NCBI RefSeq assembly: GCF_029910235.1
Contig: NZ_CP112874.1
Span: forward strand, 2,108,001 to 2,172,000
Direction: 5' to 3'
From: Pseudanabaena galeata CCNP1313
Lineage (GTDB): Bacteria > Cyanobacteriota > Cyanobacteriia > Pseudanabaenales > Pseudanabaenaceae
DNA length: 64,000 bases
Position numbers and translations under genes: made by a program. The number at the start of each line of letters is the position of its first letter. The first letter of the stretch is position 1. The notes under the pieces were generated by a model, which worked only from the letters and a program-made list of their open reading frames with translations, had not been told where the DNA came from and ran no database searches. This document shows positions 609 through 16,479 of this stretch, in pieces.

Positions 609-2486
609 ATGTGCGGAATTGCTGGAGTCTTCCATTTTGACGGTGAGCCTGTTTCATCGGTTATTTTAAAAAAAATGACGGATGCGATAGCTCATCGTGG
701 TCCTGATGGCGAAGGTCAGTTTATTGAAGGTGGAGTAGGGATCGGGCATCGACGCTTAGCAATTATTGACCTATCTCCAGCAGGTCACCAGCCTATGTCA
801 ACGGCTAACGGTCGGTTTGTCATCAGTTTCAATGGCGAAATCTATAATTTTAATGAACTTCGTGTTGAGCTTGAAGCCCTTGGTTGCCCTTTTCATTCCC
901 GCACAGACACTGAAGTTCTGCTTTATGCCTATGCTACGTGGGGTGAAGCGTGTCTAAATCGTCTTAATGGCATGTTTGCCTTTGCGATTTTTGATCGCCA
1001 TACCCAAGAAGTCTTCATTGCTCGCGATCGCTATGGCATTAAGCCTCTGTACTACACCCTTCAGGGTCAAAAATTTATTTTTGGCTCTGAAGTAAAAGCA
1101 ATTTTAGCTAACCCTAGTTATCGAACCACGATTGACCAACCATCTCTACTCGAATACCTCACATTTCAAAATTTCTTTACGGACACCACCCTATTTCAGG
1201 ATGTCAAGCTCCTGCCAGCAGGAACCTCAATGTTGTTGTCACGAGAGTCAGGTCAAAAATTACATGTCAAGCAATACTGGGATTACCATTTTGTTGAACC
1301 CGAAAAACCTCTAGATGAACGTGAATATGTTGAAGAACTTGATCGCCTATTTCGTCAAGCGGTCAATCGACAGCTAATCAGTGATGTTGAGCTAGGTGCA
1401 TACCTCAGTGGAGGCATGGATAGCGGCTCGATTACAGCAATCGCAGCACAGCAACTCCCGTATCTCAAGTCTTTTACTTGTGGGTTTGATCTCAACTCAG
1501 CATCTGGCATTGAAGTTAGCTATGACGAGCGTGAGGCTGCTGAATATATGTCCTATTTATTTAAGACCGAACATTATGAGATGGTCTTAAAAGCAGGAGA
1601 CATGGAACGAGTGATGCCTCGCCTTGCTTGGCACTTAGAAGAGCCAAGAGTTGGGCAAAGTTATCCTAACTTTTATGTAGCCCAGCTAGCCAGTAAGTTT
1701 GTCAAGGTTGTCATGTCTGGAACTGGTGGTGACGAGTTGTTTGCTGGTTATCCTTGGCGTTATTATCGAGCTGTAGTCAATGACGATTTTGAACATTACA
1801 TTGATAAATATTATGGATTTTGGCAACGTCTCTTGGTTAATGGTGAAACGAAGTCAGTTCTTGCCCCAATATGGGATCAAGTGAAACATATTTCCACTAA
1901 AGATATTTTTAAAGGAGTTTTTCGTCAACCAAGACTACAAATGTCTCGTCCTGAAGATTATGTCAATTGTTCGCTTTATTTTGAAGCTAAAACTTTTTTG
2001 CATGGTCTACTGACAGTTGAAGATAAACTGAGCATGGCGCATTCTCTGGAAACTAGAGTGCCTTTTTTAGACAATGACTTGGTTGATTTCGCGATGAAAA
2101 TGCCAGTAAATTTAAAACTTGGCAATCTTACCGAAGTGGTTCAACTCAATGAGAATGATCTTGGCAATAAAACTGCTAAATATTTTCAAAAGACAAAAGA
2201 CGGCAAATTACTGTTGCGTAAAGTTATTTCTCGATATATACCTACGACTGTTACAGAAAGAGAAAAACAAGGTTTTTCTGCTCCTGATGCTAGTTGGTTT
2301 AAGGGAGATAGTATAGATTATGTCCGACGGAGATTGTCTGATCCCAAAGCTCAGATTTACAATTTTCTCGATCATAAATCTGTACAATTACTAATCGATC
2401 AGCATCTTGATGGCAAGCAAAATCGTCGTCTTTTGATTTGGTCGTTGCTCAATTTAGAAAGTTGGTGTGAGCAGTTTTTAGGATGA
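609..2486 (+). CDS. asnB: asparagine synthetase, glutamine-hydrolysing
   Basis: 625 aa, normal length for AsnB. The N-terminal glutaminase domain begins MCGIAGVF with the catalytic Cys2 exposed after Met removal. The synthetase domain has the ATP-pyrophosphatase loop SGGMDS around residue 267. The enzyme transfers amide nitrogen from glutamine through an adenylated carboxylate. AsnB homologues are frequent in capsule and O-antigen clusters, where they are often thought to amidate a sugar acid or other precursor rather than to serve housekeeping asparagine synthesis; that role is inferred from position. The stop overlaps the start of the next gene as ATGA, which implies translational coupling to the ABC permease. 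Confidence 0.93.
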   Translation: MCGIAGVFHFDGEPVSSVILKKMTDAIAHRGPDGEGQFIEGGVGIGHRRLAIIDLSPAGHQPMSTANGRFVISFNGEIYNFNELRVELEALGCPFHSRTDTEVLLYAYATWGEACLNRLNGMFAFAIFDRHTQEVFIARDRYGIKPLYYTLQGQKFIFGSEVKAILANPSYRTTIDQPSLLEYLTFQNFFTDTTLFQDVKLLPAGTSMLLSRESGQKLHVKQYWDYHFVEPEKPLDEREYVEELDRLFRQAVNRQLISDVELGAYLSGGMDSGSITAIAAQQLPYLKSFTCGFDLNSASGIEVSYDEREAAEYMSYLFKTEHYEMVLKAGDMERVMPRLAWHLEEPRVGQSYPNFYVAQLASKFVKVVMSGTGGDELFAGYPWRYYRAVVNDDFEHYIDKYYGFWQRLLVNGETKSVLAPIWDQVKHISTKDIFKGVFRQPRLQMSRPEDYVNCSLYFEAKTFLHGLLTVEDKLSMAHSLETRVPFLDNDLVDFAMKMPVNLKLGNLTEVVQLNENDLGNKTAKYFQKTKDGKLLLRKVISRYIPTTVTEREKQGFSAPDASWFKGDSIDYVRRRLSDPKAQIYNFLDHKSVQLLIDQHLDGKQNRRLLIWSLLNLESWCEQFLG

Positions 2487-3325
2487 ACATGCGATATTTT
2501 CTATCATTTGATTTGCATATACGAGCATTTCGAGAAGTCTTAAGGCTTGTCATAATGTATAAATCTCTAACATGGGAAATGACAAAAAGTGAGGTGACAG
2601 ATCGTTATAGAGGACAGATACTTGGTTGGTTCTGGGCAATACTTCATCCATTGATATTGATAGGAGTTTATATCTTTATCTTTGTTGTTATATTCAAAAT
2701 TAGAATCGGTGGGACAAGAGAAATGCCGCTTGATTACACTACTTACTTGCTATCTGGGTTAATCCCTTGGTTGACTGTGCAAGAGGTAATGTCTAAAGCA
2801 GGTACTGCAATTACTAGTAACGCAAATCTAGTTAAACAAGTTGTGTTTCCAATTGAGATTTTGCCAATTAAAAGCATTTTGGCTTCCTTAATTACGCAAG
2901 GGATTTTTCTATCTATTTTGATTATGTATGTGTTAGCAACGAATCATTCTCTGCCATTTACATATATATTTTTGCCATTGCTCTTTTTTATACAAATGGT
3001 TGGGATGGCTGGTATTTCTTTTACTCTATCTGCAATAGGGGTCTACTTCAAAGATGTTAAAGATATTGTACAGATGTTTACATTGATTGGTATATATTTG
3101 TTGCCAATTTTTTATCTTCCCGAGCAAGTACCTGAACAATTTAGATTACTTTTATTTATAAATCCTTTCAGTTATATGGTCTGGTGTTATCAAGATGTAC
3201 TCTATCTTGGTAGATTCGATCATCCTTGGGCTTGGGTAGCATTCATTGTCATGAGTCACTTCTCATTTACTTTCGGTTACAATCTTTTTCGTAAGTTAAA
3301 AATAATGTTTGGTAATGTTTTATGA
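2483..3325 (+). CDS. ABC-2 type polysaccharide export permease (Wzm-like)
   Basis: 280 aa inner-membrane protein with about six hydrophobic segments and the [19 protein letters not shown] start typical of ABC-2 permeases exporting O-antigen, capsule or teichoic-acid-like polymers. It overlaps asnB upstream (ATGA) and the ATP-binding partner downstream (ATGA, 3322-3325). It would form the channel through which a finished, lipid-linked glycan crosses the cytoplasmic membrane, energised by the neighbouring ATPase. Family membership is clear; the exported polymer is not known. Confidence 0.9.
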
Positions 3326-5718
3326 ATTTACAAGATCGACAAGGTATTGCAATAAAGATTAGTAATCTTTCTAAGGTATACAAAATTTACGAAAAACCTG
3401 CTGATATGGTTTGGGAGTTATTTTCATCTAAGACTATTCACAAAGAATTTTGGGCTTTAAAAAATATTTCTTTAGAAATTAGAAGAGGAGAAATTCTTGG
3501 GGTCGTTGGAAGAAATGGAGCTGGCAAGAGTACTCTTCTAAAGATACTAGCAGGAACCTTAGATAAAACATCGGGTGATATATATATTAACGGTAAAATC
3601 TCCGCTATCCTAGAGCTAGGGACAGGTTTTAATCCTGAGTACACAGGTCGTGAGAATATCTATATGGGTGGATTATGCTTGGGTATGTCGAGAGAAGAAA
3701 TAGATCAAAAAATTGACTCTATTATTGATTTTAGTGAGTTGAGACATGTTATTGATCAAGCATTTAAAACATACTCTAGCGGAATGCAAGCTAGGCTTAC
3801 TTTTTCTACGGCTATCAGTATAAAACCTGATATTTTGATTATTGATGAGGCATTAGCTGCTGGGGATGCACCTTTTGTTGAAAAATGTATTCATAAAATG
3901 GAGGAGATTATTCGCTCTGGCTGTACTGTTTTACTTGTTTCGCATAATACTAACTTAATAAGTAGATTTGCAAATCGCGCAATTTTACTAGAAGAAGGTA
4001 AAGTAGTCGCGGATGACTTATCAGAAAATATAGCTAAAATATATGAAGTTCGCAGCTATACATCTAGCCTAAATGAAAATAATGATGGGAAGAAAGAACG
4101 TGTTGGCGATCAGAAAATACACATAGTAGATGTCCAAATCTATGGAGAAGAGTTTGATAGTAATGTATTCTTTCAGGGAACTGATTTAAGTATAGAGATC
4201 GAAATTGACTCTTTGATTGAAAGTAGTACAGCGAATTTTTATGTAGCAGTTTATCGCACAGACGGCATATGTGTCTGGAGCTCAACTAACTATAAACATA
4301 TTGATAATAACTACAATCTAATTTCTACGCAATTTTGCATCAAACCAGGGAACAGCAAGATTCAGTTAAAGATAAAGACAATACCTTTTAATTCTGGAAA
4401 TTACTATCTCACAATTGGTATAGAGCCGTATCCTGATGTTAATGCTGTAGCAAATTATCATGATTATCTACCACGGTATAAAAAATTTTCTGTTACCCGT
4501 CGCGATAGCTTAGTGCTTAATAAAATATGTGATACACCTTCAAAATGGTTTCTCAGAAGCAATTACCTTATAAAATCTAAGATAGAAGTAGAATCAGAGA
4601 TTAGATTACGGAAATTCCCTTATCCCTACAAATCAGCTATTTCAATCTCCAATGATTGTGAGTTTATGTCTTGGGATAATCACTTGAAACTATACAGATT
4701 TTTATGCAGTAAACAAGGTCTTGGTCTAGAAATTGCCAACAGTATATTTTTTAACGTGACAAATTCACTTTGTCACTCAACGTTCAGCTATTTTCAAGAT
4801 TTATCTGATAAACCATCTGTTTATAGTTCAATTTTAAAAGAAATGATTCAATCGGGTTATATTGATACTATTCATGCCTATGGTGACTTTGATGATGGTA
4901 CTTTTAAAAATAAATTTGCTGAGAAAACAATCGAAGAATGTATAAATAATCAATTGAAGTTTAAAGTTTGGACAAATCACGGTTCAAATAAAAATTATCA
5001 AAATATAGGACATCATAATTTAGATAACTACCAGCAGGGAGATATTCCAAAGAGTAAATTTTATCACTTAGATATTTTAAGGTACATTGGAACTCGTTAT
5101 TTTTGGGTTGACGACGGTTATGTAAATCATCCATCGGATGGCAATTTATTATATTGTGAGCAAGCCCGTGATGGCTCAAACCTTAATCTGTTCAGGAGAT
5201 ATAGGGGGCTTGTTGGTAAGTCTGCTCCCAATGCAAGTTTATTGCCAGAGCAAATTTGCATAGACGATATAAATTTGCTAATTGCTCAAGAGCAAGCTTG
5301 TATTTACTATCAACACTTAGGCTGTTGGAAAAAGAATAATGATGGGACATTTGAAACCAATCAGCCACCATTTTTTTCTGCCGAGGCAATTAAGGTGCTA
5401 GAATATATTTCTCAAGTATTTCACGAAGGCAAGTGTTTAGTTACAACTGTAAGCCGATTGCTTCAATATCTTGAAGTATGTCAATCAATTAAGTTTTGGT
5501 CTTCAGACACAGAAATTATCATTTCATCCACATCCGAAAATATTACTTATCATGATCTAGAAGGGCTTACATTTTATATCCGAGAACCAGAAAAGATGAA
5601 ATTAGTTTGGCATAGCAAGAATGGAGAAATTATTGCTTTACCTTCAGAGACGTTTATTGATAATGATGAAAGTTGTATAGGCGTGCCTTGGAGAAAAATG
5701 GGAGAATTTATATGGTAA
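3322..5718 (+). CDS. polysaccharide ABC exporter ATPase (Wzt-like) with extra C-terminal region
   Basis: 798 aa, roughly twice the usual Wzt length. Residues 1-245 are a complete ATPase with Walker [10 protein letters not shown], signature YSSGMQARL, Walker B ILIIDEAL and the H-loop in LLVSHN. Residues about 260-420 look like the Wzt C-terminal beta-sandwich that binds the non-reducing end of the glycan before export. From about residue 434 to the end is a further region starting [13 protein letters not shown] and carrying KVWTNHGS. This resembles the metal-site motifs of NodB-type carbohydrate deacetylase barrels, but the match is by eye only. The fusion suggests coupling of chain recognition with chain modification. 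It overlaps both neighbours and is AT-rich. Confidence 0.85.
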
Positions 5719-7688
5719 GACCTTTGGATAAACTAGACATTTCTCTGATTTTATCGATAGCCAAAGCATATAATGACGAAGGGTACGCAAAATTCATTTG
5801 TCAGTTTCCTATGTCTTTCTATTTAGATCGAGTAAAGCGTATTAACTTTTCTGGCTATGAGAAGGTTTTGGATATTGGGTGTGGGTATGGACAATGGACA
5901 TCCGTATTAGCCATGTATAACCAAAAAGTTATAGCCCTTGAATGCAATCAGAATCGTTTGTCAATCGCACAAGAGTTTATCAAAAACTGTGAAATTCAGA
6001 ATGTAGATTTTGTCCTTGGAGATGCCATTTCTCTTCCATTAGATGATTTGGAGGTAGATGCCATTTTCTGCTATGGGGTGTTCATGTTCTTAGACAGACA
6101 GAAAGCACTAAAAGAATTCCATAGAGTTTTAAAGCCAGGTGGGAAGATCTATATTTGCACTAATGCTTTTGGTTGGTGGCTAAGAATGTGGCTGAAAAAT
6201 ATATTTGGCGATAAGAATCTCAGGTCTGCTGCCTATAGAGCCATGACACAAGGAAGAAAAAATGTAATACCAAACTCTACCAACAAGAAAGATGTTTTTA
6301 GACTTTTGAATTCTGATGATTGGGAGGATGTGTTAGTAGAATACGAGGGCCATTTATTTAATGAAATAGAAGCAAAACCTTTAAATTGCTATCAAGGAAC
6401 ATTCTTGAATTTTGATGCTGTAATTGAATTCACTTCTAAAAAAAAAGCAATTAAAACAATAGATGAGAAAGCAAATAGAGAACCTAAAATCTCGCCTAAT
6501 AATGTTGTTAATATATTTAAAAATACTGTTTTAGAAACTTTAACAAAAACCAACTATGAATACATAACTCCTTTAACAAAATACCCTCAGCCTAAACCAT
6601 CTCTTGATTTAGTCAATAACTGTTATGCAAGTATAATAGAAGTGAAAACTAGTTTATCTCTTTCACTAAATAGGTTAGAGCAACTTCAATGGCTTTATGC
6701 GAGAATAACTGAATCAAGTCAGTCTGACTTAGAAAAGTTCTATGCCTGCTTAACGTTTGCTCAGTTACACTTTTTTCATCACTTTGCTGGACAACCGATG
6801 CAGACTAATGGGGTTTCTGTACTAGATCCTATTGCTGGCATACTGCTTGGTTTTGGAAGATGTGGGACGGTTTCCCGTTTACTAGTTGACCTATTTCTTT
6901 GTAATGGATTTCAATCGAGGCTAGTGACTGCTGGTTGCCACACTTCATCTGAAGTTTTTTTAGGTGGAAAATGGGTTTTAGCAGATGCTAGTCTTTTCCC
7001 CCCTGGGATTTATCCTATGGATGATTCTGGTGATCCTGTAAGTTTGGAGCAAATAGCTGAATGTCCAGCATTAATTGACAAATGTCCTTCCTATATTAAT
7101 TATCATCACGAGTACATAGATGCTTTCCTAAAAACTTATCCTGAAACTGATGGCATTATTGGAAAATATCTTAGAAATCCTCTACTTCCTTCTTCTGGTT
7201 ATTTTGCAAAAGAATACTTCACTGGCGGTCGTGCTATTGGATTAATTGAGCGTCTTTCTAAAACTGGAAGCTTTCAAGAATGGAATGCTGATGTAAACTT
7301 TGGTTGGACAAGAAATTATGAAAAAGATGTTCTACAAGGACAGATACTAACAACTAGGCAAAGACCAAGCCAAGTTCAAGATATTTATCTTGTGGGAGAA
7401 TACATAACATGGAATAAGTCATTTTCTGTTCAACATGATACAGAAATTGTGTATAGACTAATTGTTTCGGATACATCGCGAAAATGGGCTTACGATAGCA
7501 TACCAATAGGTTTCAATTTGTCAGTCATTGGAGAAGTCATAAAGATACAAGATAATCACATTTCTATAAAAAATTTACTCTGTCTGGGCAGGTATTTAAC
7601 TATCTATGCAGAGATAAATTCATGGCAAGAGGAAGATATATTTTATCTTCCATCTAAAGAGTTTGATTTAAGATCTCTAGTAAATTAG
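5712..7688 (+). CDS. SAM methyltransferase fused to a transglutaminase-like domain
   Basis: 658 aa from the ATG at 5712, which overlaps the upstream stop (ATGGTAA) and follows a GGGAG ribosome-binding site; an in-frame codon at 5673 is a less likely start. The N-terminal domain is a class I methyltransferase with VLDIGCGYG at about residue 52. The C-terminal half contains a transglutaminase-type triad in the expected order: Cys384 in [10 protein letters not shown], His410 in GCHTSSEVF and Asp425 in VLADAS. Transglutaminase-fold enzymes act as amidases, peptidases or acyl transferases, so it may amidate or cross-link the glycan or an attached peptide. This is inferred from fold motifs and operon position, and the substrate is unknown. 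Confidence 0.82.
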
Positions 7689-7697
7689 TCAAATAAT

Positions 7698-8615
7698 ATG
7701 CATCATAATGATTTTGAGCGTGAAGAGAGTTTGTATGAAGATGCTATTGCTGAAAGATACAATCGTGATTATCACAGCTATTTAATTATGCAAGCACATG
7801 ATGAAGATTTTTCCCAGTTTGTGTCTCAAAACTACCATAAAGGAGATCGAGTACTAGATTTGGGATGTGGACCTGCATCTTTGTGGCATCTTTGGAAAAG
7901 GGCTTTACCTGATCCTTCCCAAATAGTTGGAGTCGATTTATCTGAGGGGATGATCAAAGAATGTGAAAAAATGTTTCCTGAAGATGATTTTAGAGTTGGT
8001 AGTGCATTAAAAATTCCAGCTGACTCAGGTAGCTTTGATTTAGTAATTGTCTCTAGTATATTGCATCATATTCCTGACGAATTTCTGCCAGATGCATTTA
8101 AAGAAATTAATAGAGTATTAGATGAGCATGGAGTTGTTGTTGGTCGTGAGCCAGTATCTAAAGGAAGATTAGGAGACGAACCCGGTTGGTTCTCGGGCGC
8201 AATTATGTCATTTAGACATTTAGTGTATAGACTCACTCATACTCGTGAATACCCAGAACCAGCAATTGGTGACTACCACCATGCTTACATCCCAACTGAA
8301 TTTTTAAAATTGCTTAGTCATTCTTTTTCTCCAAAGGGAGTTATTCTAAAGCACCCTGTCAGCTCATATGTTCTTAGAAGTAATAACACTTTGGTCGCTA
8401 AAATTGCCCGTCTCTTAGATAATTCTATTGGCTTTGGGGGACATGAATTTTACTACTCAGCCTCAAAAAATTACTATGATTCTGGTGATGTCATGGACTG
8501 TATAGAGAAAGAGTTAAATACCATACTCGATCCAGATAAAAAAATAGAGTTTATGGCTTTATTACAAAAATCTGCTGAACTTCTTGAAAGAGAGCTAAAT
8601 ACTGAAAATGGCTAG
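7698..8615 (+). CDS. class I SAM-dependent methyltransferase
   Basis: 305 aa. The SAM-binding motif RVLDLGCGP lies at residues 51-59, an acidic residue follows in VGVDLSEGM, and the FDLVIVSSILHHIPDE segment is typical of methyltransferase type 11 proteins. It overlaps the next glycosyltransferase by 8 bp, so both are likely translated together. In this setting it probably methylates a sugar of the growing chain or its end; terminal methylation is a known length-control and recognition signal in ABC-exported O-antigens. Target not determinable. Confidence 0.88.
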   Translation: MHHNDFEREESLYEDAIAERYNRDYHSYLIMQAHDEDFSQFVSQNYHKGDRVLDLGCGPASLWHLWKRALPDPSQIVGVDLSEGMIKECEKMFPEDDFRVGSALKIPADSGSFDLVIVSSILHHIPDEFLPDAFKEINRVLDEHGVVVGREPVSKGRLGDEPGWFSGAIMSFRHLVYRLTHTREYPEPAIGDYHHAYIPTEFLKLLSHSFSPKGVILKHPVSSYVLRSNNTLVAKIARLLDNSIGFGGHEFYYSASKNYYDSGDVMDCIEKELNTILDPDKKIEFMALLQKSAELLERELNTENG

Positions 8616-10431
8616 TAATTCAGATGTTCATATGACAGAAACGGCAAATTGGATTGAAAAATTCCGCCAAAAATATGGGCAATCGCCACGCATATTGCAT
8701 ATAGGGAATATCGCGAACAATGCTTATAACAATGCTAAATTACTAAACAATGCAGGGCTAGATTGTGATGTAATCTGCTATGACTATTATCACACTATGG
8801 GTTGTCCAGAATGGGAAGATGCAGATTTCATAGGTTCTGTTAGAGATCAATTCTTCCCAAATTGGCACAGTTTGGAAATGAATAAATTCCAGCGCCCTCT
8901 TTGGTTTGCCCAAGGTCCAACAAAACTCTGCATTCGTTACCTATTAGCAAAGAGACAAAGTGGTTTAAAGAGTGCCAGATCTTTGTGGTTTCAGCTAGGG
9001 CTATATAGATTTTTTCGCACATGTTTAGTCGGCAACTATGTATACAAAAAACTTTTATCCTTAAAAAAGATCAAAGACTCATATACACAGCCTGTCCTAG
9101 GAGCATATAGCTATGCAAAACTCTGCATTCGTTACCTATTAGCAAAGAGACAAAGTGGTTTAAAGAGTGCCAGATCTTTGTGGTTTCAGCTAGGGCTATA
9201 TAGATTTTTTCGCACATGTTTAGTCGGCAACTATGTATACAAAAAACTTTTATCCTTAAAAAAGATCAAAGACTCATATACACAGCCTGTCCTAGGAGCA
9301 TATAGCTATGCAAAATATCAATTAAAGCGTTGTTTTATTAATAAATACACGCGCCCTTATCTTAGAAAATATTTCCCCAAACTAAAAACCTCTAAAGATT
9401 TACCAGAATCTACTAAATCTTTATTTGAAGAACGAGTAGAAGAAATCATCCAAAGATTTAAAGTCAATTTCTCTGAACGTAGCGATCAACTATTAGCGAC
9501 AGATTTAATTCCTTACAACTCTATAATACCTTTATGGAGCCAGCTCTTTGATCAATATGACATTATCCAAGCATATTCTACAGATCCGATTTTGCCATTA
9601 CTCGCAGGCAAAAAATACTTTGCTTTTGAGCATGGAACATTAAGAGATATTCCTTTTTATCCAAACACGCAGGGTAGAATTACGGCAATTTCTTATAGTG
9701 AAGCACAGCATGTCTTTGTCACAAATTCTGATTGCTTAGAAAATGCGCATTACTTAGCTGGGGAAAGGGTTTCTTACATAAATCATCCGTATGACGAAAG
9801 CCATGGTGATGCTATAAGTGGCTCAGAAGATTTACGTAGACGCTTATGTAAAGAACTTGATGCTGACTTTCTTTTCTTTTTCCCGACTCGACAGGACTGG
9901 GTGGTTGGCACTGGCTATGCAGACAAAAGTAACGACATTTTTTTGAGAGCCTTCTGCCAATTGCGCCAATCAGGATATAAAGTTGGCATGGTTTGCTGTC
10001 GATGGGGTAAAAATGTTCAAGAAAGTATTCATTTGTTGAAAGACAACCAATGTGATAAATATGTGCTTTGGCAAGAGCCTATGGGAACAGTACAGTTTGA
10101 GAGGACAGTAAAAGCTTGTGACGTAGTTGTCGATCAGTTTAAGCTTGGGTCTTTTGGTGGAATAATGTTTAAGGCTATGGCAGTTGGTACAGTAATTTGT
10201 ACTTACTTAAATGAAGCCGAAATTTTGAATCAGTATCAAGAGTTACCACCAATAATTAATTGCCAAACAGAGGTGCAAATCGTTCAAGCTGTTCAAGAAC
10301 TTATCAATCACCCTGAAAATATTAATCGCTTATCACTCTCTGCTAAGCAGTGGATTGACAAGTACCATAGCTCTAGTCTGACAGTACAAACTCAGTTACA
10401 GCAATATAAGTTGTTACTTATGCCTGATTAA
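8608..10431 (+). CDS. GT-B-like glycosyltransferase with internal tandem duplication
   Basis: 607 aa. The C-terminal half has a GT-B, family-4-like donor-binding region: KYVLWQEPMGTVQFER, then ACDVVVDQFKLGSFGG and MFKAMAVGTV. Residues 106-170 and 171-235 are identical 65-residue copies, produced by a perfect 195-bp tandem duplication in the DNA; without it the protein would be about 542 aa. The duplicated part is basic, aromatic-rich and lies before the donor domain. Function as a sugar transferase for the exported glycan follows from family and context. Whether the enlarged protein folds normally is unknown. Confidence 0.82.
   Translation: MASNSDVHMTETANWIEKFRQKYGQSPRILHIGNIANNAYNNAKLLNNAGLDCDVICYDYYHTMGCPEWEDADFIGSVRDQFFPNWHSLEMNKFQRPLWFAQGPTKLCIRYLLAKRQSGLKSARSLWFQLGLYRFFRTCLVGNYVYKKLLSLKKIKDSYTQPVLGAYSYAKLCIRYLLAKRQSGLKSARSLWFQLGLYRFFRTCLVGNYVYKKLLSLKKIKDSYTQPVLGAYSYAKYQLKRCFINKYTRPYLRKYFPKLKTSKDLPESTKSLFEERVEEIIQRFKVNFSERSDQLLATDLIPYNSIIPLWSQLFDQYDIIQAYSTDPILPLLAGKKYFAFEHGTLRDIPFYPNTQGRITAISYSEAQHVFVTNSDCLENAHYLAGERVSYINHPYDESHGDAISGSEDLRRRLCKELDADFLFFFPTRQDWVVGTGYADKSNDIFLRAFCQLRQSGYKVGMVCCRWGKNVQESIHLLKDNQCDKYVLWQEPMGTVQFERTVKACDVVVDQFKLGSFGGIMFKAMAVGTVICTYLNEAEILNQYQELPPIINCQTEVQIVQAVQELINHPENINRLSLSAKQWIDKYHSSSLTVQTQLQQYKLLLMPD
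8921..9315 (+). repeat. perfect 195-bp direct tandem duplication inside a glycosyltransferase gene
   Basis: Bases 8921-9120 are repeated at 9116-9315 without a visible mismatch. The copies are offset by 195 bp (65 codons, frame kept) and share the 5-bp junction CAAAA. The start of the first copy, the junction and the end of the second copy all carry CAAAA, which fits slippage or unequal exchange at short homology. Zero divergence points to a very recent event, or to an assembly artefact. Confidence 0.97.
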
Positions 10432-10487
10432 ATCCCCACATTTTCTTCTGTCATCAATTATTGCAAAAATCAAATAATTACATATTT

Positions 10488-11624
10488 ATGAGAAACGAAG
10501 TTTTACCGAATTTAACAATTCCTGCAAATCTTGACAAATTTGATTTTCGTTGTTTCCAAAAAGAAATGGAGCAAGTGATTGAAGGTGTTTTTATTACAGA
10601 TGAATACTGGTATCCAGTTATCAAAGGTGTTCCTTGCTTTTTAAAAGATGTGCTTAGACCAAACTTTACTTGGTTTCAAGAAAAATATAATTTGGCAAAG
10701 CTTGCCGAATCCTCAATATCAGAATTTGAAAGCGAACAGTTACTCACAAATACAACTTTCTCAGATAAGTGGAACAAGTTTCGTAATTATGGTTTAGAGC
10801 AAACTCACCAAGAATTTCTTTACGCTTGGTACTGCAAAAAATTTGGCGTTTCGACGACTGAGGAACTTGTAAGATTTTATCGCCAATTTAAGACGGTTCT
10901 AGAAATTGGACCCGGCTCAGGATTTAACACGAGATTTATTGCAGAAACGCTAGCTGATAATAATGAAGCAAAAGTCTTTGCTTTAGACATTTCTGATGCA
11001 GCATTTACAACCTTTGAAAATACTAAGCATCTTGCAAATTGCCATGTTGTCCAAGCAGATCTAATGTCTATGCCATTTGCTGACTGCTCATTTGATTTCA
11101 TTATTGCTGATGGTGTTTTACATCACACACCCGACACGAAAAAGGCTTTGTTTGCAGTTTATAAGAAACTCAAACCAAATGGACAGATGTTCTTTTATGT
11201 TTATAAGCAGATGGGTGCAGCAAGGCAGTTTTGCGATCGCTACATTCGTGAGCATTTTACACATCTAGAGCCAGATGAATGCTACAAAGCCTGTGAGGGA
11301 CTTACAGAGTTAGGCAGAGAGCTTAGTCATCTCAATGCCAAAATCACCCTTGAGAAAGATATTCCAGTATTGGGTATACCAGCAGGAACCCATGATGTCC
11401 AACGGCTTTTCTACTACAATTTTGTTAAATGTTTTTGGAATGATGCTTTCGATTTTGAAACGAATAATATGGTTAACTTTGATTGGTATCATCCCCATAA
11501 TGCTTGGCAACATACAGAAACAGAAGTAGCAGGTTGGCTACAAGAGCTAGGTGTAAGCGATTACAAGTTTAATGATGCAAACCCAAATGGTATCTCTGTC
11601 CTCCTAACTAAGCCCTCGCTGTGA
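10488..11624 (+). CDS. class I SAM-dependent methyltransferase
   Basis: 378 aa from ATG 10488; a TTG at 10461 would add nine residues, and neither has a clear ribosome-binding site. The first ~130 residues contain GVFITDEYWYPVIKGVPCFL, like the short N-terminal domain (usually Zn-ribbon-like, here without its cysteines) found before many glycan-cluster methyltransferases. The catalytic domain shows VLEIGPGSGFNTRF at about residue 138 and FDFIIADGVLHHTPD. Its stop overlaps the GTG start of the next glycosyltransferase. It probably modifies a sugar in the operon's product; the substrate is not known. Confidence 0.87.
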   Translation: MRNEVLPNLTIPANLDKFDFRCFQKEMEQVIEGVFITDEYWYPVIKGVPCFLKDVLRPNFTWFQEKYNLAKLAESSISEFESEQLLTNTTFSDKWNKFRNYGLEQTHQEFLYAWYCKKFGVSTTEELVRFYRQFKTVLEIGPGSGFNTRFIAETLADNNEAKVFALDISDAAFTTFENTKHLANCHVVQADLMSMPFADCSFDFIIADGVLHHTPDTKKALFAVYKKLKPNGQMFFYVYKQMGAARQFCDRYIREHFTHLEPDECYKACEGLTELGRELSHLNAKITLEKDIPVLGIPAGTHDVQRLFYYNFVKCFWNDAFDFETNNMVNFDWYHPHNAWQHTETEVAGWLQELGVSDYKFNDANPNGISVLLTKPSL

Positions 11625-12826
11625 AAAGATTATTTTGGTTTGGTTATGATTTTTTGTCTTATGTTTTTTTGGGTATAGGCTTATTACTATTTCCATTGAG
11701 GTGGCTAGTTAAGTTTATTTCTATAAGAACTCAGCCTACTGATCTAAGATTAAACAGCCTCTGGACAGGCACACCAATTATTACATTGGCAGTTAAAGCA
11801 AAAGCAGAAGCTCTCTTAGGAGTTAATGCAAAATCATTGGTCTATGATACTTATTTTATTACTAGTGACTTTGACTACAATTTGAGTGGTTGGACAACTA
11901 TTCCTTTGGTAGGTAAATTAACCTCTTTATTTGTTTTTATTTGGGTTTGCCTATGGGCTGACCGTATCCATATGTACATGGATCGAGGCGTTTTACTTGG
12001 TAGTAAACCTTTACAGTCAAGTTTTAAGGAATTATTAGTTTACAAAAAATTAGGTATTTCGTTTTTTTTCTGGACTTATGGTGCAGATGTACGGAGCCGT
12101 CAAACTACAGAAAAACTAGGACATCCAAATTGCTGTACGGAATGTCCTGCCATTGGAAAAGCCTGTATTTGTGATGAGTATAGCCGTAAAATTCGTATAA
12201 ATAAACTCACACATTATGCGAGATGTGTATTTTCTATGGGCGATATGATGGAGTACACAGTAGGAAGTCGCAACGATCTATTTTTTTGGCCATTGGATCT
12301 ATATGGCGCGAAGTCTGCAAAGTATAAAGCTATATATCCAACTAGTGATCGCACAAAACCTGTACGCATTGTCCACGCTCCTAACCATCGGGCCTTTAAA
12401 GGAACACATTACCTAATCGAAGCTGTAGAAAGACTAATTGCTAAAGGTACACAGATAGAACTAGTTCTAGTCGAAAAAGTTGCTAATGAAAAGGCTCTTG
12501 AGATGTATAGATCTGCTGATATCATATTTGACCAATGCTTAATAGGATTTCATGGCTACTTTGCATTAGAAGGTATGGCAATGGGAAAGCCTGTGATGTG
12601 TTATATCCGCAAGCCACAAGAATATCTGCTGAACCATGAAGAATGCCCAATTATAAATACTCATATTGATACACTAGAGCAAGATATTGAAGAACTTGTA
12701 AATAATCGCGATCGCTTAAGAGAGATTGGAATTAAAAGCCGCCAATATATTGAAAAATATTTCACATTGGAAGCATTTGCCGATAGGCTAAAAAATGCTT
12801 ACCAAGATTTAGGAGTTACTATATGA
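11621..12826 (+). CDS. GT-B-like glycosyltransferase with Cys cluster
   Basis: 401 aa, GTG start overlapping the previous stop. A hydrophobic N-terminus (YDFLSYVFLGIGLLLFPL) may hold it to the membrane. The donor-binding half has IVHAPNHRAFKGTHYLIEA and SADIIFDQCLIGFHG, then GMAMGKPVMCY. A cysteine cluster, NCCTECPAIGKACIC, follows YGADVRSRQ in the middle of the protein and may bind metal. It shares this layout with the 358-aa glycosyltransferase at 13722. It ends in ATGA with the downstream epimerase. Acceptor and donor sugars are unknown. Confidence 0.82.
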   Translation: MKRLFWFGYDFLSYVFLGIGLLLFPLRWLVKFISIRTQPTDLRLNSLWTGTPIITLAVKAKAEALLGVNAKSLVYDTYFITSDFDYNLSGWTTIPLVGKLTSLFVFIWVCLWADRIHMYMDRGVLLGSKPLQSSFKELLVYKKLGISFFFWTYGADVRSRQTTEKLGHPNCCTECPAIGKACICDEYSRKIRINKLTHYARCVFSMGDMMEYTVGSRNDLFFWPLDLYGAKSAKYKAIYPTSDRTKPVRIVHAPNHRAFKGTHYLIEAVERLIAKGTQIELVLVEKVANEKALEMYRSADIIFDQCLIGFHGYFALEGMAMGKPVMCYIRKPQEYLLNHEECPIINTHIDTLEQDIEELVNNRDRLREIGIKSRQYIEKYFTLEAFADRLKNAYQDLGVTI

Positions 12827-13707
12827 AAGTCTTAATCATCGGATCAGGTGGCTTTTTAGGAAAAAATTTGCTCAATTATTTTCTAGCGCAAAATATTGAC
12901 GTTATAGGTTGTAGTTCTGCTCAAAGTAATGGTGGCATATGTGCAGATACAGGTTTGCTCTCTAGTCAATTTTCTATTCCACCAGATACGCATACAGTCA
13001 TTTATCTTTCCCAATCCCCATACTATCGACAAGTCCCAGAAATGGCAGAGCATTTACTAAATGTAAATGTAGTTAGTGCAGTTAAAGTTGCTGAATTAGC
13101 CCGTAGAGCAAAAGTTAAGCATTTCATTTACACATCCACAGGAAATGTTTATGCCCCAAGTTTTGAACCACTCACCGAAGATGCCCCAATTAATCGGAAT
13201 AACTGGTATGCATTGAGCAAAATACATGCGGAGGAATCATTATCCTTATTTCGCAATGACTTTGATGTGACAATTATGCGATTGTTTGGTGTGTATGGGA
13301 CAGGTCAAACTGACAAATTAATCCCTAACTTATTCAATACTGTCTTACAAAGAAGAAAGGTTTTTGTTGATCGTAATTCTATTGATACAAACGATATAGA
13401 TGGATTGCGAATATCACTAATTAATGTAGTAGATCTTGTCAAAATTTTTCTGCAATGTATAACTTCTTCAAACTTAAAGAGCTATTTACTAAATATTAGT
13501 AGTCATGAAGTTGTTAGTATTCGTCATATCACTACATTAATTAGTCAAGCTCTCGATCTTCCAGTTGATATAGAGATTAGTGACAAATATCAACAATCTA
13601 GTTTAATAGCAAATATTCAGTTGTTACAAGCAACTTTTAATCCAGTTTTTACACCTATAGAAAAAGGAATCCAAAATATGGCTGTTCAATATAAAGTGCT
13701 AAAGTAA
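12823..13707 (+). CDS. NAD-dependent epimerase/dehydratase (SDR family)
   Basis: 294 aa. The Rossmann motif GSGGFLG is at the N-terminus (residues 7-13) and the catalytic YALSK sits near residue 127, after the TSTGNVYAP segment. The length is typical of extended SDR enzymes acting on nucleotide sugars, such as dTDP-4-dehydrorhamnose reductases and GDP-sugar epimerases. It is translationally coupled to the glycosyltransferase before it. It likely supplies a second activated sugar besides the epimerase at the window start; exact activity cannot be assigned. Confidence 0.85.
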   Translation: MKVLIIGSGGFLGKNLLNYFLAQNIDVIGCSSAQSNGGICADTGLLSSQFSIPPDTHTVIYLSQSPYYRQVPEMAEHLLNVNVVSAVKVAELARRAKVKHFIYTSTGNVYAPSFEPLTEDAPINRNNWYALSKIHAEESLSLFRNDFDVTIMRLFGVYGTGQTDKLIPNLFNTVLQRRKVFVDRNSIDTNDIDGLRISLINVVDLVKIFLQCITSSNLKSYLLNISSHEVVSIRHITTLISQALDLPVDIEISDKYQQSSLIANIQLLQATFNPVFTPIEKGIQNMAVQYKVLK

Positions 13708-13721
13708 GATTAATAAAAACA

Positions 13722-14798
13722 ATGAAAGTTCTTCATTTACCTACTTATACTGGTGGACAGGCTTGGGGACTCGCACAAGGGGAAAGATCTCTCGGATTAG
13801 ATAGCAAAGTTTTAGTAAGAAATAATGAATGGCTTGGATATTCCTGTGATATTGACTTGGGATTAGATAAAATGTCTTCTCCATTCACTAAATTTGCTAA
13901 GCTAACAAAGACTTTTTTTCAAATTAGAAATAAATATGATGTATTCCATTTCAACTTTGGCTCATCTTTATTTCATTCACCTAAGGACTATCTTAATCAT
14001 TTAGAACTGCCATTTTATCCTAAACAAGCTAAGCTTTTTGCAACTTATAATGGCTGTGATATTCGCCAGAAATATATCACGATGCAACGTACTTCAATAG
14101 CAGCCTGTCATAATTCTACTTGTTACAATGGGCAGTGTAATTCTGGCAAGTTAGATGAGTTACGGCTTAAAGGCATTACAAAGATGCAAAAGTATGTACA
14201 GCATATTTGGGCAGTAAATCCAGACTTACTGTATTTCTTACCGCCTCATATGTCTTCTTTTCTTCCCTATTCCATTAGTCTAGATGGAATAGCTGTAAAC
14301 CTTCCAAAACTTGAGCGTAAAAAAATAAAAATTATTCATGCTCCAACTAATCGTGCTGCAAAAGGGAGTGACTATATATTTACAGCGATCGCAAAGTTAG
14401 AAAAAACCCATGCTGAATACTTTGATTTTAAGGTAATTGAAAATATTCCTCACGCACAAGCCTTACAACTTTATCAAGACGCAGATCTAGTTATAGATCA
14501 GATCTTGATTGGTTGGTATGGAGGATTTGCTGTAGAAGTAATGGCAATGGGTAAACCTGTGATCGCAAGAATAGCTACTGAAGATCTACATTTTTTACCA
14601 CTACAAATGGCTAAGGAAGTTCAAGAATCAGTTATTAATGCCGATCCTATCTCTATCTTTACAGTTTTAAAACAGTGTATTGAAGATCGCAAACTACTCC
14701 AAGATTATGCCAATACTGCAATTGAATACGCTCGCAAATGGCATCATCCGCAGCATGTTGCTAGTCTAACAAAAGAAAAATACGAATCATATTTCTAA
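13722..14798 (+). CDS. GT-B-like glycosyltransferase with Cys cluster (paralogue of the 11621 gene)
   Basis: 358 aa. It begins MKVLHLPTYTGGQAWGL. The donor half has IIHAPTNRAAKGSDYI and ADLVIDQILIGWYGG, then VMAMGKPVIA, nearly matching the 401-aa enzyme upstream. A cysteine cluster, ACHNSTCYNGQC, follows YNGCDIRQ at the equivalent place. It is the last gene of the operon and is followed by a strong palindromic terminator. The role is sugar addition to the exported glycan by context; donor and linkage are not known. Confidence 0.83.
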   Translation: MKVLHLPTYTGGQAWGLAQGERSLGLDSKVLVRNNEWLGYSCDIDLGLDKMSSPFTKFAKLTKTFFQIRNKYDVFHFNFGSSLFHSPKDYLNHLELPFYPKQAKLFATYNGCDIRQKYITMQRTSIAACHNSTCYNGQCNSGKLDELRLKGITKMQKYVQHIWAVNPDLLYFLPPHMSSFLPYSISLDGIAVNLPKLERKKIKIIHAPTNRAAKGSDYIFTAIAKLEKTHAEYFDFKVIENIPHAQALQLYQDADLVIDQILIGWYGGFAVEVMAMGKPVIARIATEDLHFLPLQMAKEVQESVINADPISIFTVLKQCIEDRKLLQDYANTAIEYARKWHHPQHVASLTKEKYESYF

Positions 14799-14808
14799 AC
14801 AGCTAGAT

Positions 14809-14856
14809 AGAACTAAAGCTTATGCTGCTTGCAGCAGCGGCACAAGCTTTAGTTCT
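14809..14856. terminator. bidirectional hairpin between the glycan operon and lhgO-like gene
   Basis: The arms AGAACTAAAGCTT (14809-14821) and AAGCTTTAGTTCT (14844-14856) are perfect complements, with a loop containing a smaller GCTGC palindrome. The hairpin lies between convergent genes and overlaps the stop codon of the minus-strand gene, so it could end transcription from both sides. Confidence 0.75.
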
Positions 14857-16039
14857 ATGTACTTAATTCTCTAACGATCGCTTTTCCAATTTCTAAAGAA
14901 GAAGTAGCCGCAGGAGATGGTGCATTACAAACATGAATAGATTTTTGATCTTTAATAATTAAAAAATCCTCAACTAACTGTCCATTAGGCTTAAGTGCTT
15001 GGGCGCGAACTCCTGCGTGTGTTGGCACTAAATCATCCGATATCACTTCAGGAATCAATTGCTGAAGACTACGCACAAATGCATCTTTACTGAAAGAACG
15101 AATGATCTCTTGAATACCATCTTTAGAATACTTAGAGGCTAATTTCCAAAAACCAGGATAGGAAAAAATTTCAGCAGCATCTCGCATATCAAAATCTGTT
15201 TTGTGGTATCCCTCTCGCTTGAGACTAAGAACAGCATTTGGTCCAGCATGAACACTACCATCAATCATTTTGGTAAAGTGAACTCCCAAAAACGGGAAAT
15301 TAGGATTAGGGACAGGATAAATCAGAGTCTTTACTAAATACCTTTTTTCAGGCTTTAACTCATAATATTCTCCACGAAATGGAATAATTTGTATTTGTGG
15401 ATCAACATTTCCAAGCTTTGCAAGGTGATCGCTTTGAAGACCACCACAATTAATTAGCATTCGAGTTGCGAAAATTCCTTGACTTGTATCTATTTCTTTT
15501 CCTTCAGAAATATCTTTAATCTGAGTCACATGTGCCTTCAGCAAAAGTTCCCCACCATCATCTCTAATCATATCCACTAACTTTTGACATACTTGGCGAT
15601 AGCTGACAATTCCTGTGGAAAAGACTCTTAATCCTGCGATACAACTTACATGCGGTTCAACTTCTTTGACTTCTTCAGCACTAATTTTTTCCACCTTAAG
15701 TCCATTAGCTAATCCACGTTGATAAAGATCTTCAAGTAGAGATAACTCTTGTGGCTTAGTTGCAACAATTACTTTCCCGCATATTTCGTGACTGATATTA
15801 TATTTATTACAGAATTCTGTCATGGAAATATTCCCCTCACGGCAGAATTTTGCTTTAAAGCTACCTGGCTTGTAATAAATACCAGAATGGATCACACCAC
15901 TATTGTTACTGGTTTGGTGGAAAGCCCATTGACTCTCTTTATCTAGGATTAATAGTTTTGCTCTAGGATAACTCTGGAGTAAATTCCTTGCTGTTGCAAG
16001 TCCAACAATTCCACCGCCAATAACTATGAAGTCATACAT
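14855..16039 (-). CDS. lhgO: L-2-hydroxyglutarate oxidase-like FAD enzyme
   Basis: 394 aa, normal for LhgO. The N-terminal FAD-binding motif is VIGGGIVGLATARNL (residues 6-20), followed by the family-typical FHQTSNNSGVIHSGIYY and later GLRVFSTGIVSY and HAGVRAQAL. The family oxidises L-2-hydroxyglutarate to 2-oxoglutarate and passes electrons to the membrane or to oxygen. It is monocistronic, convergent with the glycan operon. The family (DAO superfamily) is certain; the exact substrate rests on the LhgO-like motifs. Confidence 0.88.
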   Translation of the reverse strand: MYDFIVIGGGIVGLATARNLLQSYPRAKLLILDKESQWAFHQTSNNSGVIHSGIYYKPGSFKAKFCREGNISMTEFCNKYNISHEICGKVIVATKPQELSLLEDLYQRGLANGLKVEKISAEEVKEVEPHVSCIAGLRVFSTGIVSYRQVCQKLVDMIRDDGGELLLKAHVTQIKDISEGKEIDTSQGIFATRMLINCGGLQSDHLAKLGNVDPQIQIIPFRGEYYELKPEKRYLVKTLIYPVPNPNFPFLGVHFTKMIDGSVHAGPNAVLSLKREGYHKTDFDMRDAAEIFSYPGFWKLASKYSKDGIQEIIRSFSKDAFVRSLQQLIPEVISDDLVPTHAGVRAQALKPNGQLVEDFLIIKDQKSIHVCNAPSPAATSSLEIGKAIVRELST

Positions 16040-16479
16040 ACTATATATTCGTAAAGGTGATCTATATCAATTATTCCTAATTTTTGATCCTACATTGAGT
16101 AGGTGATCTCGACAAAAATATTTATCGTGAAAAAATGAGGATTCTAGAGATCCTATTCTCAATAGTATATTCTTATTGACTATAGCAATCCTAAATAGGT
16201 TGTGAGAGTGCGCCCCTTCGGGGCGCACTCTCACAACACTCAAAATCTTACAACTCATTTAGGAGCGCTATATCCTATATCAATTCAAATACCCACCAGT
16301 TTCAAATTCAAAAAGCTGTAAATAATACAGACATAAATAACTAAGGAGTGAAAATTCAATAACCTGTGCAAATAAACCCAAAACATTTTTGGGTTTTATT
16401 AAATTTCTGACCCTAAACACCTATTAAGCATTTGTAATATACTCAGTAATATATTGCTAGACCAATACTGATCAAACTT
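16040..16479. other. intergenic region between divergent lhgO-like and Uma2 genes
   Basis: 440 bp without a credible gene. Besides element A it holds a short CCAAAAACATTTTTGG palindrome near 16378-16393. The promoters of the two divergent genes must lie here, but I see no clear -35/-10 pair. Confidence 0.6.
16180..16272. repeat. palindromic element A, copy 1
   Basis: The ~93-bp element is bounded by TA and has imperfect 20-bp inverted ends: TAGCAATCCTAAATAGGTTG on the left and the complement of TAGCGCTCCTAAATGAGTTG on the right (16 of 20 match). The left part holds a perfect hairpin (16199-16237) with a TTCG tetraloop. A near-identical copy is at 57694-57787. Confidence 0.88.

Follow-up and report, generated by a model that had tools for sequence, protein, structure and literature searches.

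How did the open reading frame of a probable polysaccharide glycosyltransferase come to contain an exact internal repeat, and what would the repeat mean for the enzyme? In the window, the whole 64,000-nucleotide stretch of Pseudanabaena galeata CCNP1313 DNA analysed here, a repeat search located a 195-bp unit twice in tandem on the forward strand, at 8921–9115 and 9116–9310, with the two copies 100% identical. Tandem Repeats Finder (TRF) reported 8921–9315, with a period of 195, 2.0 copies, a 100% match and no indel. The 5-mer CAAAA occurs at 8921, 9116 and 9311, that is, at the start of each copy and again at the downstream border (9311–9315, +), where it forms a 5-bp border homology. Residues 171–235 of the product repeat residues 106–170, which adds 65 aa and leaves the frame (8608–10431) open. 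The original prediction, a perfect in-frame 195-bp tandem duplication bordered by CAAAA and adding 65 residues, was right in every detail. Beside the junction lies a hairpin (9327–9352, 81% complementary).

A DNA search of the organism's own genome (5.84 Mb, 6 contigs) found the 195-bp unit at these two places only. For comparison, 475 kb of the same contig, composed of the 64-kb window, 11 kb upstream of it (1 kb overlap) and 20 samples of 20 kb, was scanned for exact tandem repeats of period 20 or more present in two full copies or more. Besides the 195-bp pair, the scan showed 21-nt arrays in two samples and, within a longer array, a pair of 126-nt units. The exact 195-bp tandem pair is far above chance expectation. 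The genome carries an array of 126-bp units (L101, 16284–17492; 9.6 copies), in which some neighbours are exactly identical and which presumably belongs to a TPR-type repeat protein.

The duplication is contained in an ORF of 607 aa (8608–10431, +). The AlphaFold2 model of the protein (mean pLDDT 83.0, pTM 0.80) matched GT-B glycosyltransferases in the PDB, with MshA, Anabaena HepE and BshA as the top matches. A second model, that of the single-copy orthologue from Nostoc (mean pLDDT 86.7), aligned with a GT4 enzyme at Z 25.8 over 333 residues and with HepE at Z 25.5. By sequence, a PDB search with the 607-aa protein returned no match, and no Pfam family scored above its cut-off, the best being Glyco_trans_1_4 (glycosyl transferases group 1) at 16.0 bits against a cut-off of 27. 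At the site of the EX7E motif, which GT4 enzymes have in the C-terminal half, the window protein reads LGSFGGIMFKAMA, with no acidic residue at either end. Because the model matches GT-B enzymes by fold, these results indicate that the protein is a GT-B glycosyltransferase; it is left out of GT4, since that site lacks the acidic residues of EX7E. The label "glycosyltransferase" given originally is thus borne out by the structure matches but not by Pfam. The GT4-type enzymes HepE, BshA, PimA and MshA share its overall fold (VIA-align Z 22–26 over 327–349 residues, for the Nostoc orthologue model), whereas identity to them is only 10–15% and the long helical insert, the lack of a Pfam match above cut-off and the missing EX7E acidic residues distinguish the present protein.

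The neighbouring genes encode an NAD-dependent epimerase, an asparagine-synthase-like protein, an ABC-2 membrane protein (2483–3325, +), an ABC ATPase with a Wzt C-terminal domain (3322–5718, +), methyltransferases and further glycosyltransferase-like proteins. From this gene content we infer that the neighbourhood is a Wzm/Wzt-type polysaccharide export cluster. The ATPase ORF has 798 aa, with its Wzt-type C-terminal domain at residues 258–394, and its counterpart in Nostoc sp. CHAB 5844 (L081) has just 414 aa. Between window 609–8615 and L081 3079–7965, the asparagine-synthase-like protein, the ABC membrane protein, the ABC ATPase and the methyltransferase share 49–78% protein identity, with their order kept; the glycosyltransferases of the two loci share 32%, below the value of these neighbours. 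In addition, similarity to the congeneric genome G022 shifts sharply at about 10603. Downstream, 10603–16084 has 91.5% nucleotide identity to G022, and upstream the match is one 184-nt piece of the glycosyltransferase gene (75.5%). Judged from the alignment, this position looks like the boundary of a cassette exchange in the polysaccharide cluster.

Orthologues were sought among 38 near relatives, 388 genomes of the class and, within the family of G105, 217 genomes; the genome at the centre of each set is counted in these numbers. Six cyanobacterial orthologues were obtained, from G022, of the same genus, and from G105, G529, G530, G535 and G537. All six have the segment once, with lengths of 534–559 aa. 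The genomes G105, G535 and G537 belong to the class of the window's genome, which identifies the window as cyanobacterial; their orthologues are letter-for-letter those of Anabaena sp. 4-3 (L046), Nostoc sp. LEGE 06077 (L047) and Nostoc sp. CHAB 5844. When alignment searches were extended to the order of G105 (388 genomes) and to the window's own genus (26 genomes), they turned up no further intact orthologue. No relative was found on viral contigs by an alignment search or on plasmids by tblastn, and a scan of genome contigs with the single protein confirmed none, whereas the alignment-based scan did find relatives. Since each of the six orthologues carries the segment once, these results indicate that the one-copy form is ancestral and the two-copy form derived. 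A single-copy orthologue of 542 aa had been anticipated, and the six lengths bracket that value; the opposing case, in which all relatives share the two-copy form, does not hold.

A candidate orthologue at L108 (G772) was rejected, its ORF matching convincingly over residues 258–601 only. At that locus (525–2366), an N-terminal stretch without a match, overlapping an ORF on the opposite strand, is joined in frame to the C-terminal part of the glycosyltransferase, and the break falls within the insert described below. In two of the six orthologues, those of G022 (L026) and G537 (L033), the N-terminal block is 53–58% identical to that of the window, against 30–34% beyond the insert; the other four are similar throughout. 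This pattern possibly reflects an exchange of halves at the insert.

Comparison with relatives divides the gene into three parts, namely a conserved N-terminal block with the first strands of the N-terminal Rossmann half (residues 1–103; 8608–8916, +), a variable basic helical insert containing both copies (residues 104–317; 8917–9558, +), and a conserved remainder from residue 318, which completes the N-terminal half and includes the C-terminal Rossmann half (9559–10431, +). The 37 relatives used were drawn from the 40 loci of the alignment scan and the six genomes, and with the window gene they make the set of 38. Eight rows were left out of the 38-gene counts, five as short or contig-cut ORFs (L059, L061, L069, L071 and L079) and three as duplicates (L046, L047 and L081, letter-for-letter identical to L027, L038 and L033, respectively); L080, which has no usable ORF, was also left out. 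Measured between the conserved blocks at residues 103 and 318, the insert of the 37 relatives is 115–341 aa long (median 155). The window insert has 214 aa, or 149 without the extra copy, which is near the 144–162 aa of the six cyanobacterial orthologues.

In the model, the insert sits between two strands of the N-terminal half (residues 100–103 and 319–323), and an initial description of the segment as an interdomain linker was dropped for this reason in favour of "insert". The core is predicted with confidence, most blocks exceeding 90, and most of both copies forms low-confidence helices, much like the insert of the Nostoc orthologue. The first ~30 residues of the unit are confidently folded (pLDDT 92–95) and partly conserved. 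Net positive charge is found in the insert of 37 of the 38 proteins, compared with the N block of five and the C block of eight, and a single 65-residue unit contributes 12 net positive charges. A transmembrane-like stretch is present in 14 of the 38 inserts. The window's own insert has none (maximum 0.85), and a hydrophobic-moment scan of residues 96–265 gave no 18-residue stretch above 0.5. Membrane binding by the window's insert is therefore weakly supported.

The insert is also where tandem arrays recur in this family. With TRF at a score of at least 50 and a period of 9 or more, arrays were detected in the inserts of seven of the 38 genes and in none of the 38 N blocks or 38 C blocks, although inserts make up 19,530 of the 67,413 nt. 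The periods (195, 21, 42, 21, 9 and 12, 30, 18) are all multiples of three, and in a betaproteobacterial MAG (L048) the copies of the 42-bp array match at 95%. In 200 runs with codon-shuffled inserts, the number of genes with arrays averaged 0.575 and reached 3 at most. The placement of arrays in the insert had p = 0.0006 with the window gene removed, a value that ignores relatedness. The threshold of 50 was chosen after a first scan at 36, and at a score of 36 weaker arrays also appear outside the insert and some periods are not divisible by three. These results suggest that in-frame duplications arise repeatedly in the insert and are tolerated there. Selection for frame together with free length would explain the clustering of in-frame arrays well, a raised mutation rate being unneeded. 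The idea that long inserts are old duplications was rejected: in the five inserts longer than that of the window, self-similarity is near the shuffle level (z −1.1 to 1.4), so that duplication is not shown to explain all of the length change.

The copies differ at none of 195 bp, which places a 95% upper bound of 1.5% on their divergence, compared with a nucleotide divergence of 8.5% from G022 over 10603–16084, the downstream part of the cluster. Gene conversion, or repeated contraction and expansion, also homogenises tandem copies. It is reasonable to regard the duplication as recent; the stronger wording of the original prediction, "very recent", is weakened by these other routes to identical tandem copies. 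As for its origin, the three CAAAA point to a one-copy ancestor in which CAAAA occurred twice, at a distance of 195 bp. When breakpoints 150–240 bp apart are drawn at random, a fraction of 0.0066 share 5 bp or more of border homology, in this gene and equally in 40 kb of the window. The 5-bp border homology thus speaks for slippage or template switching rather than a blunt join, though modestly, since there is one event. Template switching is an established route by which tandem repeats are deleted in E. coli (PMC8378479). The locus has the features of a microhomology-mediated tandem duplication, with CAAAA at both ends and, as all six orthologues indicate, a single-copy ancestor. In the yeast duplications of this kind, as reviewed in PMC13207564, short homology at both ends, a coding location and two copies are likewise present, whereas the present case is bacterial, in frame and found in an assembled genome.

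Most probably, then, the duplication arose recently through microhomology, in an insert that tolerates changes of length, and is near-neutral in effect, with the enzyme retaining its fold and activity. Replication slippage or template switching between the two CAAAA of the ancestral one-copy gene would have produced the duplication in one step, with a gain of exactly 65 residues. It would have survived as 195 is a multiple of three and the site is a length-free, positively charged, mostly helical insert. The two-copy enzyme would most likely still fold and work, with a longer insert bearing 12 more net positive charges, and the insert itself may serve to keep the enzyme close to a lipid-linked acceptor or attached to the membrane. 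A near-neutral change is the simpler reading because the segment falls in an insert of naturally free length; a second copy of the folded first ~30 residues could, according to the model, disturb packing. We consider it very unlikely that the repeat is an assembly or library artefact of a genome with truly one copy. The exact identity of the copies, and the fact that the two-copy form is known from one genome of the species, would fit such an artefact. Short-read assembly, however, tends to collapse such repeats, not to expand them, and an overlap assembler would not be expected to join on 5 bp. Moreover, the contig is 4.93 Mb long in a genome of 6 contigs, and the same insert carries arrays in other, independently assembled genomes.

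Two further explanations would give the duplication a function, as the original prediction also suggested with its altered acceptor specificity or reversible switch. In one, which is unlikely, the two-copy form would impair or change the enzyme and slippage or recombination would restore one copy, so that the surface polysaccharide varies within the population. Spontaneous duplications with reversible loss of the capsule are reported for the pneumococcal capsule genes (type 3 locus, cap8E and tts; Waite and co-workers 2001, 2003, as summarised in PMC4243769), and both the type of gene and the type of event, in which part of an ORF in a surface-polysaccharide locus is directly repeated in tandem, are the same here. 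In E. coli, moreover, tandem direct repeats of 101 bp are lost at high frequency when RecA is absent (PMC8378479). Against the pneumococcal cases, the present duplication keeps the frame, unlike a plain frameshift off-switch, lies in an insert whose length is free across the family, and is known from one assembled sequence; and reversibility, a property in principle of every tandem duplication, is generic and no mark of a switch. In the other explanation, which we regard as improbable, the second basic helical copy would have altered acceptor reach, membrane hold or product length, in the manner of PglH, and been selected. In PglH, also a GT-B enzyme, a basic amphipathic helix of the N-terminal half binds the membrane and counts the units of the glycan (PMC5792488); the present insert belongs to that half as well (between strands 100–103 and 319–323), and either element may meet the membrane and a lipid-linked acceptor. 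The 12 net positive charges per unit and the transmembrane-like stretches of other family inserts point the same way. The insert is nevertheless much longer than the PglH helix, variable, predicted with low confidence and, in the window copy, not clearly amphipathic; the unit lacks strong amphipathicity, and the analogy concerns composition and place only.

Taken alone, the duplication captures a coding repeat cleanly, at a stage when its copies have yet to diverge. The single event belongs to a known class, and the part worth following is the family pattern, in which one insert of a widespread, unnamed glycosyltransferase family repeatedly gains in-frame tandem duplications and the conserved parts do not. 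It is conceivable, at long odds, that the insert is an evolvable tuning element, in which frequent in-frame duplications and losses from short border homologies alter membrane hold or glycan length. That the family adjusts its surface sugars by insert length, the window having caught one step just after it, is an equally speculative part of the same proposal. If insert length does change the product, a simple replication error would be linked to glycan variation in environmental bacteria. For duplications that keep the frame within linkers, and for those inside glycosyltransferase genes of cyanobacteria, the open-licence literature searched gave nothing on point. The family extends over Cyanobacteria, Proteobacteria, Planctomycetes and Chloroflexi, and in Mariprofundus erugo (L057) two adjoining ORFs, 7377–9026 and 9060–10649, encode glycosyltransferases of this kind.
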